A stretch of 37,937 bases of DNA from an uncultured Chlorobiaceae bacterium (GTDB lineage: Bacteria; Bacteroidota; Chlorobiia; Chlorobiales; Chlorobiaceae), in assembly GCA_903940125.1 (NCBI GenBank), contig CAJAJL010000105.1, positions 1 through 37,937 of the forward strand, written 5' to 3'. Positions within the stretch are counted from its first letter, which is position 1; each line of letters starts with the position of its first letter. The notes under the pieces were generated by a model that was not told the origin of the DNA, made no database searches, and saw only the letters and a list, made by a program, of their open reading frames with translations. Both the position numbers and the translations under genes were made by a program. This document shows, one piece after another, positions 9,289 through 14,913 of this stretch.

Positions 9289-9618
9289 TTATTCGCTTTT
9301 AAGCATTCTGTCAGTAAGCATGGTCAGAAAATCCCGGCGGGTCGATACAAACATATAGACATAAACACCCTGCACATCAACCTCATAGATGACTCTGGTT
9401 TGACCAACCAACCTCTGTCGAATCCCTTGCAAACCAAGCTTAATGGTCTCATCAGGAACAATACCGGCTAAAGGAAACTCCCCGATCTCCTTTAGAACCT
9501 CTTTGAATTTTAGCTCTGAGGATCTCCAGACCTCCACGCTAAATTTATGGGTAACATATTTTCTGATTTCACGATAATCATCTTTCGCACAATCCAGGAT
9601 ATAAACGGAATGCGCCAC
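9289..9618 (-). CDS. RelE/ParE-family toxin
   Basis: A 109-residue toxin of the RelE/ParE superfamily: N-terminal beta strand HSVYILDCAKDD, a two-helix segment to about residue 55, then the C-terminal sheet with GIRQRLVGQTRVIYEVD and VYVYMFVSTRRDF. The length and the basic sheet match ParE-like gyrase poisons or RelE-like ribonucleases; I cannot tell which. The start is GTG at 9618, and the antitoxin stop TAG shares its last base with this start (TAGTG), so translation is coupled. It is co-transcribed downstream of the Phd/YefM antitoxin gene. Confidence 0.85.
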   Translation of the reverse strand: MAHSVYILDCAKDDYREIRKYVTHKFSVEVWRSSELKFKEVLKEIGEFPLAGIVPDETIKLGLQGIRQRLVGQTRVIYEVDVQGVYVYMFVSTRRDFLTMLTDRMLKSE

Positions 9619-9884
9619 TATCCCTCCTTCTCCATTTCAGCAAAGAAATCCTCTGTACTCTGAAATTTCCCTTGTGAGATCTCTTTCCTGCCCATATTGA
9701 TGAGTTTCAGAAAAGCCATGGTTTCAATCTGTTCTTCGTACGTACGAATGTCCATGACAACAATTTTGGCTTCACCATTCTGTGTAACGATAAGCGGAGT
9801 GCGGTTCTCTTCAAAGTCTCTTACGATCTCGGCAGCATGGGACTTCAGGTAGGAAATCGGGCGAACCCTTTCTGATAGTTTCAT
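9618..9884 (-). CDS. Phd/YefM-family antitoxin
   Basis: An 88-residue antitoxin with the Phd/YefM N-terminal DNA-binding fold: VRPISYLKSHAAEIVRDF, then TPLIVTQNGEAKIVVMDIRTYEE, and an acidic C-terminal tail (FQSTEDFFAEMEKE) that would cover the toxin. The ATG at 9884 is preferred to an earlier frame opening at 9914 because an AGGAA ribosome site lies 6 bases upstream and the protein then starts just before the conserved domain. As in related pairs it probably represses its own operon; a 20-base palindrome at 9913-9932 lies just upstream. Confidence 0.88.
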   Translation of the reverse strand: MKLSERVRPISYLKSHAAEIVRDFEENRTPLIVTQNGEAKIVVMDIRTYEEQIETMAFLKLINMGRKEISQGKFQSTEDFFAEMEKEG

Positions 9885-9912
9885 TGTAGTTCCTGTTCGG
9901 ATGTTCGCATAC

Positions 9913-9932
9913 ATTTAGTCATAAAACTAAAT
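9913..9932 (-). promoter_or_regulatory. Operator-like palindrome of the toxin-antitoxin operon
   Basis: Perfect 7-bp inverted repeat ATTTAGT / ACTAAAT with a 6-base spacer, located 29 bases upstream of the antitoxin start codon in AT-rich DNA. Phd/YefM antitoxins bind such palindromes for autoregulation. The role is inferred from position and symmetry. Confidence 0.45.
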
Positions 9933-11954: not shown

Positions 11955-13633
11955 TCAGTAAACCAGTTCGCCACCGAATTCCTTGATAATAAACCTTATG
12001 ACCTCATTGCTTTCAGCAAGTTCCTGAAAAATGGTAAAGAGTGTCTTCTCTTTTGTGCAGGCATCTTTCTCAGCATCATAGAGAATACGGAGCTTCAGGG
12101 GCAGTGCGTAAAACTCTGACACCTCCTTCTGTAGAATATCTATATCGAGCAGAAGCTCTTCATAGGAAAACTTTTTGCAACAGACAATGTCGAGTACTCC
12201 GCCTGGACTGCACGCTCCAAGTTCACAGGATTGAAGGTGGGTTGCCATGAAGTTCTGGGTTTTCCTGGAAATATGATCAAGAAACTGACGCCATTCAACC
12301 TTCAGAGTGTCCAGATCTGCAATCTTTTCGAGTGCAACCTCATTGCCATCATTAATTTTGCTTGTTGCCACACTGGCTCGAAGCTGCTGCACAGCTGAAT
12401 TTGATGCAAAACCTGAAAGTTTTTTCTGCCATGAACCAAGATCAAGATCCCCGGATACCGGCTGCTTTTTCAGTGGCTTGTCAGGGGCTTTTTTTTTTGA
12501 GGATCAGTGTGCACAATATCAATAAGCTTCAGAAGTGCAAGTTCGAAGCGGAACTGGTATTCGAACTGAAATTTCAGCTCTTTCTGGGTCAGCAGCAAAA
12601 AATCAACCATCTGCATAACCGAGAGTGGAGAAAAGTTGGCCGCATCATGCAGATAACGCTCACGTACAGCATCGGGGCGCTCAACAAGACGTGTAGAAGA
12701 AAGATTCTGCACTACCAGAAAATTTCTTAAATGTTCGATCAGTTTTTCAAGAAAATCCTGTTCATCATAACCATTTCTGATGACAAACTGCGCCACATCA
12801 AGCATCCCTGCAGGATTGTGCTCAGCAACTGCGTCAGTCACAGCAAACATCTGATCATCGTCAATATAGTTCAGCAGCTCGGCAACACCCTGATAACTGA
12901 TAGAACCTCCATAATCGTTCTCAGCTGAAAAGGCTATAACCTGATCCAGAATACTCTGAGCATCACGCATCGACCCCTGAGCCTTGCGGCCAATAAGCTG
13001 AAGAGCATCACCATCAACAGTAATATGCTCGGCATCACAAATAAGCTGAAGCTGACGCTGGATGTCCTCAAGTGGAATCCGCTTGAAGTTGAAACGCTGA
13101 CATCGGGAAGCAATGGTTGCCGGAATCTTGTGAAGTTCGGTGGTGGCAAAAATAAAAATGGCGTGCGGTGGCGGCTCCTCAAGGGTTTTGAGAAATGCAT
13201 TGAACGCTGCAATGGAAAGCATGTGTACCTCGTCGATAATATAGACACGGTACTTCCCTTTCTGCGGTCCATACCGGACATTCTCTCTCAGCATGCGGAT
13301 ATCATCAACACTGTTGTTGGAGGCCGCATCAAACTCCGCAATGTTGAAACTGGTGCCCGAATCAAAGTCTCTGCAGCTTTCGCATTCACCACAAGGTTCG
13401 GTGACCTGCTGCAGATAGTCAGGGTCTTCCATCATTTTCTGGCAGTTCACTGCTTTGGCAAAAACCCTTGCCGCGGTTGTCTTGCCAACTCCCCGTAATC
13501 CTGAAAATATATACCCATGTCCAACCCTTCCCATGCGAAGCGAGTTCTGGATTGTGCGGGTGACATGTTCCTGTGCGGTAATATCGGCAAACTTTGCGGG
13601 TCTGTATTTTCTGGCTATAACCTGATAACTCAT
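11955..13633 (-). CDS. dnaX: DNA polymerase III tau subunit, long product requiring a -1 frameshift
   Basis: Clamp-loader subunit of the replicative polymerase. The long product would use the zero frame from ATG 13633 through codon 382, slip -1 on the A10 run at 12498-12489, and continue from 12488 for 177 residues to TGA at 11957-11955, giving about 559 residues. The -1 extension starts with a Lys/Pro-rich linker. It then carries a domain containing KVEWRQFLDHI and ends ESNEVIRFIIKEFGGELV, which matches the typical ending of bacterial DnaX tau proteins. This region has no credible start or ribosome site of its own (only a GTG at 12392, inside the linker). The intact extension argues that slippage is real or that one A is missing in the assembly. 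It overlaps yihY by ATGA at its start. Confidence 0.75.
12470..13633 (-). CDS. dnaX: DNA polymerase III gamma-like subunit, zero-frame short product
   Basis: The zero-frame reading of dnaX, 387 residues. It has the Walker A GLRGVGKTTAAR, the zinc-binding cysteine set ending PCGECESC, Walker B with the DEVHMLS box, the sensor/arginine-finger stretch IPATIASRCQRFNF, and the oligomerisation domain (clamp-loader domains I-III). The frame ends nine codons after entering the A10 run: Gln-Lys-Lys-Lys-Pro-Leu-Thr-Ser-His-stop (TGA at 12472-12470). This is the size expected of gamma, which lacks the helicase- and polymerase-binding tau domains. Start ATG 13633 overlaps the yihY stop (ATGA), implying coupled translation. 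Confidence 0.9.
   Translation of the reverse strand: MSYQVIARKYRPAKFADITAQEHVTRTIQNSLRMGRVGHGYIFSGLRGVGKTTAARVFAKAVNCQKMMEDPDYLQQVTEPCGECESCRDFDSGTSFNIAEFDAASNNSVDDIRMLRENVRYGPQKGKYRVYIIDEVHMLSIAAFNAFLKTLEEPPPHAIFIFATTELHKIPATIASRCQRFNFKRIPLEDIQRQLQLICDAEHITVDGDALQLIGRKAQGSMRDAQSILDQVIAFSAENDYGGSISYQGVAELLNYIDDDQMFAVTDAVAEHNPAGMLDVAQFVIRNGYDEQDFLEKLIEHLRNFLVVQNLSSTRLVERPDAVRERYLHDAANFSPLSVMQMVDFLLLTQKELKFQFEYQFRFELALLKLIDIVHTDPQKKKPLTSH
12488..12498 (-). promoter_or_regulatory. Slippery site in dnaX (A10 followed by G)
   Basis: On the coding strand ten A residues are followed by G, read in zero frame as CAA AAA AAA AAG. It contains A-AAA-AAG in the right phase (12494-12488), the same heptamer used for -1 frameshifting in Escherichia coli dnaX. 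The long A-run would also allow transcriptional slippage, as known for Thermus dnaX. Just downstream a CCGG-TAT-CCGG element (near 12451-12461) and CCCC/GGGG stretches could form a stimulatory structure. No clear internal Shine-Dalgarno element is seen upstream. Confidence 0.65.
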
Positions 13634-14913
13634 AACTGCTCTTGATTAATGTCGTCCAACAATGTCGCAACGGGCATATTGAGGTTGTTTTTCAGGCAAT
13701 CCGACACTCCCCTGCTGATTGTTTCCAAATGTACGTTATTACCGTCTGAAATCAGTGATCCGTTTTCATCCCCGACAAACCCAGGCGGAATGATTGTATA
13801 GAGATCGTATATCGATAGGGTATAAAGATCGCGACTGACCGCCATATCACCATTTGCCGTAACATGTACTACATCGTTTTGAAGCAGAATATCAACAATT
13901 TTTCTTAAATCTGACGGCTGCAGCGAGTGAACCGTCTTCAAAATTTTCTTCATATTCATTGAACGACCACTCTTCTGACCATTCCATATTGAAGCCAGTA
14001 CTGCAAGAATCTCAGGAACACCCCGTATTGGATTGAATGATTCAACTCTCCCGCCAAGGGGTTTCAGAGCACCAAGGCAAAAAACAAATTCCGCCCCGGT
14101 CAACACGACTACCCAGCCGAGATAAATCCAGAAAAAAAGCATGGGAATCACCGATAATGCCCCGTAAATATGCTCAAACGTTGCAATATGAGTGATATAA
14201 AAGAGAAACCATATTTTTGAAAGTTCGAACATAACTGCAGCAAGGAACCCGCCGGACATTGCATGAACAAACCTGACCCGACGATTCGGCACAAGCATGT
14301 ACAGCAGAAAAAATGCAAAAATCGAATTAATGAAGGGAAGATAGGAGAGGAGACGGGTTTTCAGCTCGAGCAGCGGACCTTCGGTAAACACCGTATACCA
14401 GACGTATGAGCTTGCAGCAAGACTGCTGCCGATAAGCACCGGCCCAAGCGTCAGTACAGTCCAGTAGAGAGTAAAGCCCTGCAGCGCTTTTCGGGGAGCA
14501 TGCACCTCCCATATTTCATTCAGCGTATGGTCGACAGTCGAAATAAGAAAGAGCGCAATAATAAATAAAAACACCCCGCCAAGCAACGGAACACTGGCTG
14601 TCTTTTCAATAAAATCTGCAAGGTAGCGATTCAGCACTGCTCCCGTACCCGGCAGGAAATTCTGAACGAGAAAGTCCTCTATCGAACGCTTGAAAGGAGT
14701 AAAGACTGTAAAGACACTCAATATTGAAAGTATTACGGCAAGAACCGGCACAATTGAAAGCAGAGTCTGAAAAGCCAGAGACCCGGCTCCAAGAAATATC
14801 CTGTCATGAATAAAATTTTTCCAGAAAAAAGGGGCAAATGCGCGGATATACTGCGCCATATCAGAGCGGGTGCTGACTGCGTTTTTTTTTATTGTTTTTT
14901 CTGCCTCTTCCAT
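13630..14913 (-). CDS. YihY/BrkB-family inner-membrane protein
   Basis: A 427-residue protein. Residues 30-285 are the YihY/UPF0761 membrane domain (once misnamed ribonuclease BN) with about six membrane segments and the family's conserved DHTLNEIWEV, the Pro-rich SIVPVLAVILSI helix and FFWIYLGWVVVLTGAEF. After about residue 290 comes a soluble C-terminal region containing MNMKKILKTVHSLQPSDLRKIVDILLQNDVVHV, which looks like a winged-helix-type cytoplasmic extension seen in many members of this family. Biochemical role unknown; some members have been linked to membrane transport. The stop overlaps the dnaX start by ATGA, and the MFS gene ends 15 bases upstream, so the three genes form an operon. 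Confidence 0.88.
   Translation of the reverse strand: MEEAEKTIKKNAVSTRSDMAQYIRAFAPFFWKNFIHDRIFLGAGSLAFQTLLSIVPVLAVILSILSVFTVFTPFKRSIEDFLVQNFLPGTGAVLNRYLADFIEKTASVPLLGGVFLFIIALFLISTVDHTLNEIWEVHAPRKALQGFTLYWTVLTLGPVLIGSSLAASSYVWYTVFTEGPLLELKTRLLSYLPFINSIFAFFLLYMLVPNRRVRFVHAMSGGFLAAVMFELSKIWFLFYITHIATFEHIYGALSVIPMLFFWIYLGWVVVLTGAEFVFCLGALKPLGGRVESFNPIRGVPEILAVLASIWNGQKSGRSMNMKKILKTVHSLQPSDLRKIVDILLQNDVVHVTANGDMAVSRDLYTLSIYDLYTIIPPGFVGDENGSLISDGNNVHLETISRGVSDCLKNNLNMPVATLLDDINQEQL

Follow-up and report, generated by a model that had tools for sequence, protein, structure and literature searches.

Among described dnaX genes, the closest to the one considered here are those which need recoding to yield tau, of which 17 were reported from 12 genera, nine of them with 10 A, together with a proposal of transcriptional realignment (Antonov et al., 2013; PMC3711429). 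Run lengths given in that study include 9 A in Chloroherpeton thalassium, 8 A in Chlorobium chlorochromatii and 7 A in C. phaeobacteroides. A later review of recoding notes reversed gamma and tau roles in C. phaeobacteroides (2016; PMC5009743). Transcriptional slippage is known for Thermus dnaX, at A9, and there adds up to six extra nucleotides. Slippage is also needed for the longer product of mxiE in Shigella (PMC1088944). According to a 2012 review, most bacteria outside the enterobacteria and Thermus lack dnaX frameshift signatures (PMC3290774).

The window analysed here, by which we mean the whole stretch of 37,937 nucleotides from an uncultured Chlorobiaceae bacterium, carries a dnaX gene in which gamma is the zero-frame product and tau is reached only by a shift to the -1 frame at a run of ten A, as an earlier note on this DNA had proposed. 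This split arrangement is real, conserved and ordinary for the family, and was already published in 2013. Comparison of sequences leads us to regard the locus as a functional, recoded two-ORF dnaX, in which RNA polymerase slippage on A10 would yield both gamma and tau messages, and to which reading we assign a probability of roughly 0.78. The locus comprises the following features:

12470..13633, minus strand: dnaX zero-frame ORF, gamma-like, 387 aa, made up of domains I-III and nine codons at or after the run
12489..12498, minus strand: A10 slippage run (T10 on the plus strand)
12488..12494, minus strand: A_AAA_AAG heptamer in the zero-frame register, inside the run; a possible ribosomal slip site, read from the sequence
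12470..12472, minus strand: TGA stop of gamma, zero frame
12481..12483, minus strand: TGA stop in the third frame, with which both non-tau frames end near the run
11955..12488, minus strand: C-terminal segment of tau in the -1 frame, 177 codons and a stop
12057..12317, minus strand: predicted KH-like domain, tail residues 58-144, taken as tau domain V (AlphaFold model)
13630..14913, minus strand: preceding ORF of 427 aa, resembling a membrane protein, whose stop overlaps the dnaX start (ATGA)

The dnaX start is an ATG at 13633 on the minus strand, and the A10 run begins at the second position of codon 379, within the junction CAA AAA AAA AAG CCC CTG ACA AGC CAC TGA, the last codon of which is the zero-frame stop (codon 388); the 387 residues, the A10 run and the stop after it, all as given in the earlier note, agree with the sequence. 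The -1 frame is open through the run until the stop ending at 11955 and, as had also been stated, lacks a start signal of its own: no start-like codon precedes a GTG that lies ~32 codons into the tail, on which ground an independent start for the -1 ORF was rejected. The ATGA overlap suggests that the preceding ORF and dnaX lie on one transcript, and because of it the dnaX message is probably polycistronic. Elsewhere in the window, two small overlapping ORFs of 98 and 109 aa (9289-9914, minus strand) lie near aspS, and by eye look like a Phd/YefM antitoxin followed by a RelE/ParE toxin.

The zero-frame product matches the Pfam families DNA_pol3_delta2, DNAX_ATPase_lid and DNA_pol3_gamma3, which represent the ATPase, lid and domain III, as well as NCBIfam PRK14955 (397 positions; E 3e-247) and, above its cut-off, the N-terminal clamp-loader module TIGR02397 (E 1.4e-127). 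A Pfam search of the -1 tail returned no match above chance; NCBIfam supplied one, to the C-terminal positions 452-620 of PRK14954 (E 1.2e-62), the sole model matched, which is a 620-position full-length model named 'DNA polymerase III subunits gamma and tau'. The earlier description of a -1 frame that is open for 177 residues and ends in a DnaX C-terminus is borne out by this match. Alignment of the window's tail with those of 39 relatives from the genus and order contains 11 invariant columns, and pairwise codon comparison shows changes that are mostly at third positions, with dN/dS of 0.10-0.20 in the tail as against 0.01-0.06 in gamma; on these grounds the -1 frame is evidently translated, and the tail is, by this measure, under purifying selection.

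Given the 40 aligned tails, AlphaFold predicts a confident domain at tail residues ~58-144, the top structural match of which is 4tps_B (Z 10.2, rmsd 2.2 over 80 residues). The 4tps entry is a complex of SirA with DnaA domain I, and chain B is taken to be DnaA domain I, judging from chain length. A KH fold is common to DciA, DnaA domain I and DnaX domain V, the latter two of which are described as DnaB binders (PMC9912922). E. coli tau domain V (2aya) is a poor Foldseek match to the tail (rank 33, TM < 0.3) and does not appear in the 50-entry VIA-align list for the tail domain, neither of which excludes anything; because this direct match is poor, the assignment of the tail's KH-like domain to tau domain V is tentative. 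In the 98.6%-complete genome no second dnaX was found, and such a gene was rejected as a source of tau; the other matches in the genome are weak, at ~30% identity, as expected of a clamp-loader paralogue. The short (397 positions, PRK14955) and long (620 positions, PRK14954) NCBIfam models look like one gene in two template frames. Annotation which relies on these models hides the tau that is also encoded in 'short' genomes, and annotation which calls just the ORF of 387-400 residues misses tau in approximately four-fifths of family genomes.

We propose that RNA polymerase slips at A10, giving rise to a mixed pool of mRNAs. Unslipped A10 messages, and likewise those with A9, A12 and so on, would terminate a few codons past the run and yield gamma, with domains I-III and a role in clamp loading; messages with A11, or with one extra A plus a multiple of three, would restore a single frame and yield tau, the tail of which would carry a KH-like domain of a type that binds the replicative helicase. 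Ribosomes shifting by -1 at the A_AAA_AAG within the run may contribute some further tau, and the junction peptide DPQKKKAPDKPLK would be expected of tau by either route. We infer that slippage occurs and that it is mainly transcriptional, as we do its rate.

The main alternative named in the earlier note was a homopolymer miscall, whereby the true run is A11 and the gene a single frame, and homopolymers are indeed prone to error. To the results of a search of 86 family genomes we added earlier loci, which together gave 79 family dnaX genes that could be read across the junction. The run is A10 in 76 of these, A9 in two and A11 in one; both non-tau frames stop within nine codons after the run in all 79; and 63 of the genes encode tau in the -1 frame, the other 16 in frame 0. 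The single gene with A11 (L016) reads as one frame, as a miscall at the window would imply for its own run. Against this, dozens of species from separate assemblies have A10 and tau in -1, A9 or A10 with tau in -1 is also found in single-contig genomes, and the stops behind the run are conserved. Moreover, the genome itself has 18 runs of A10 or longer, several of which sit inside intact ORFs of up to ~500 codons, and its assembly therefore does not generally break at homopolymers. Where the earlier note had allowed that close relatives might have a continuous frame and no slippery run, A9-A11 is instead present in every one of the 79 family genes. The survey thus led us to reject the miscall, the probability of which we consider vanishingly small, and the suspicion that hung over this gene is cleared. 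The A7 and A8 runs that Antonov et al. describe in C. phaeobacteroides and C. chlorochromatii do not occur in our 79 family genes, a set which may not include those strains. In the order outside Chlorobiaceae, the ten genes that we examined are all gamma-first, carry a run of A9 or A10 and encode tau in -1.

Phase variation or decay would suit the facts that poly-A tracts are also hot spots of mutation and that the template frame flips between species; on this reading, mutation of the run length in the DNA would turn tau on in some cells and off in others, or the gene would be evolving towards gamma alone. We hold this to be very improbable, given the purifying selection on the tail (dN/dS 0.10-0.20, as above), its conservation across the order, the single dnaX in the genome, and the uniform length of the run with its paired stops. 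It would also be costly for some of the cells to lose tau.

Within a narrower set of 37 genes, comprising 36 of the genus and one named Chlorobiaceae record, both off-frame stops are present in 37 of 37, as against 8.6 expected upon synonymous randomisation of the codons after the run, with the qualification that these genes are not independent trials because they are related. In five species (L032-L034, L036 and L037) the amino acids after the run differ, and the stops are reached via different codons. All 32 genes of that phase have CAA as the run's first codon, a free synonymous site at which an A outside the minimal heptamer is conserved; by comparison, ten invariant Gln columns of the same genes use CAA in 7.5% of cases on average, with none uniformly CAA, and no invariant Lys column is uniformly AAA. 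As judged from these alignments, selection demonstrably acts on the run, the off-frame stops and the -1 tail. The A run is a real control element, because it is kept in essentially every relative. The template frame is less constant: five changes are placed on the gamma tree, at least three of which are forced by supported branches, with the run retained. In the sister genus g19, for example, L219 (genome G141) has A10 with tau in frame, and L216 (genome G095) has A9 with gamma first; the two share the same upstream context, come from single-contig genomes and differ by one A, and therefore one base flips the template frame.

To gauge the spread of the run we drew 148 evenly sampled genomes from the phylum in the GTDB sense, 146 of which have dnaX. 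A run of A9-A11 directly follows DnaX domain III in 107 of the 146, representing 22 of 32 families and all three codon phases; A8 occurs in none, and the longest A run elsewhere in the same genes is at most 8. Both off-frame stops fall within nine codons in 95 of the 107, compared to 19-20% at other places of the same genes. Tau lies in frame 0 in 63 of these genes, in -1 in 43 and in +1 in one, and thus in -1 in 43 of the 44 that are gamma-first, a number which overstates the frequency of that arrangement because the sample is rich in the window's family; counted by family, gamma comes first in 9 of 32. The picture is the same in a second, unevenly drawn set of 80 named records, where 46 of 63 Bacteroidota and 2 of 3 Ignavibacteriota have a run of at least A8. 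Families f7, f19, f28 and f12, among others, have dnaX as one long frame and, at this position, no run of A8 or longer; as whole families are without the run, the element was lost or never gained there. Tau is encoded in +1 in two genes from one Flavobacteriales-like genus, L276 (genome G126; A10 with an extra C before it) and L323 (genome G232; A12, in a fragmented assembly), which would need one A lost or two gained, so that a -1 ribosomal shift cannot reach tau in either. On balance, we think it more likely than not that the phylum as a whole, taken here as Bacteroidota, Chlorobiota and relatives, is characterised by a transcriptional-slippage element of A9-A11 after domain III, which may occupy any codon phase while the template frame drifts freely between tau in frame and gamma in frame and the output is unchanged. 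If true, this would contradict the view that frameshift signatures in dnaX are largely confined to enterobacteria and Thermus (PMC3290774).

The same surveys bear on whether the ribosome, rather than RNA polymerase, makes the shift. Programmed -1 ribosomal frameshifting at A_AAA_AAG would yield tau from an unedited A10 message, by the mechanism of E. coli but with the two frames in exchanged roles. Both the window and all gamma-first genus members with CAA AAA AAA AAG have the heptamer in register, from which it follows that the sequence alone permits ribosomal slipping. Further, tau lies in -1 in nearly all gamma-first genes of the phylum sample (the 43 of 44 given above), a short hairpin may form just 3' of the run in the window (-13.6 kcal/mol over 45 nt, z -1.7, where E. 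coli has -19.7 kcal/mol and the same z), and ribosomal stimulators were suspected in C. phaeobacteroides (PMC5009743). This downstream structure is not conserved, however, as the genus mean is -7.5 kcal/mol with z 0.1, and no signal of conserved RNA structure was found across the genus either upstream or downstream of the run; an upstream SD-like motif is absent from the window and occurs in just 3 of the 37 genus genes. We consider a purely ribosomal origin of tau unlikely. Transcriptional slippage is favoured because the run measures 9-11 and never 8 in the phylum sample, in which other A runs reach 8 at most; because an A beyond the minimal heptamer is also under selection; because the third-frame stop is kept, although it plays no role in a -1 ribosomal shift; because the run has outlasted repeated flips of the template frame; and because two relatives, L276 and L323, have tau in +1, beyond the reach of -1 ribosomal slipping. 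The preponderance of -1 among gamma-first genes may be explained by transcriptional slippage that is biased towards insertion, and a ribosomal contribution would explain it also.

The earlier note had described the frame arrangement as the reverse of the textbook logic. The gamma-first template stands. It is not unreported (Antonov et al., 2013; PMC5009743), and 'reverse logic' overstates the case, because in relatives an indel has flipped the template frame while the run was kept, and because, if slippage is transcriptional, a pool of A10, A11 and other mRNAs would give both proteins whichever frame the template holds. The likeliest account, in our analysis, is that the reversal is largely a matter of template phase, with RNA polymerase slipping as in Thermus dnaX. 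The presence of the run in any codon phase across the phylum extends the published arrangement and is possibly unreported; for a wider survey of Bacteroidota, the open-access literature gave only Antonov et al. More broadly, our results indicate that, throughout one bacterial family, production of an essential replication protein relies on slippage. Natural frame flips around the same run offer a test of whether RNA polymerase, and not the template frame, sets the ratio of gamma to tau, and also bear on the need for gamma outside the few bacteria studied.

Of the known systems, the dnaX cluster of GeneTack (PMC3711429) is the nearest, with gamma in the zero frame, tau in -1, a poly-A junction, and members from Chlorobium and Chloroherpeton. 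The window gene shows the two-ORF features of this type, namely domains I-III in the upstream ORF, the tau C-terminus in the -1 downstream ORF and a conserved poly-A junction; it differs in nothing of substance, and its species adds a member. To that description we add that the run is constant across the family, that stops are paired behind it, that the template frame flips and that the run is spread through the phylum. Thermus thermophilus dnaX likewise has an A9-A10 run after domain III and stops in both off-frames, with mixed mRNA lengths expected, and the window shares with it a coding-strand homopolymer of at least 9 A and stops soon afterwards in both non-tau frames; the template frame encodes tau in T. 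thermophilus, where slippage yields gamma, whereas in the window it encodes gamma. Shigella mxiE is similar in that homopolymer slippage joins two ORFs to produce a longer protein with full function, but it is an unrelated gene, with a T run on the coding strand, and encodes a regulator rather than a replisome subunit. Escherichia coli dnaX resembles the window in its in-register A_AAA_AAG approximately two-thirds through the gene and its two DnaX products. There, however, the site is A6G, accompanied by a stem-loop and, upstream, by an SD-like motif, and tau occupies the zero frame with gamma made by the shift, whereas the window has A10, no SD-like motif and no conserved stem, and its zero frame ends at codon 388, such that tau would be the product of the shift.
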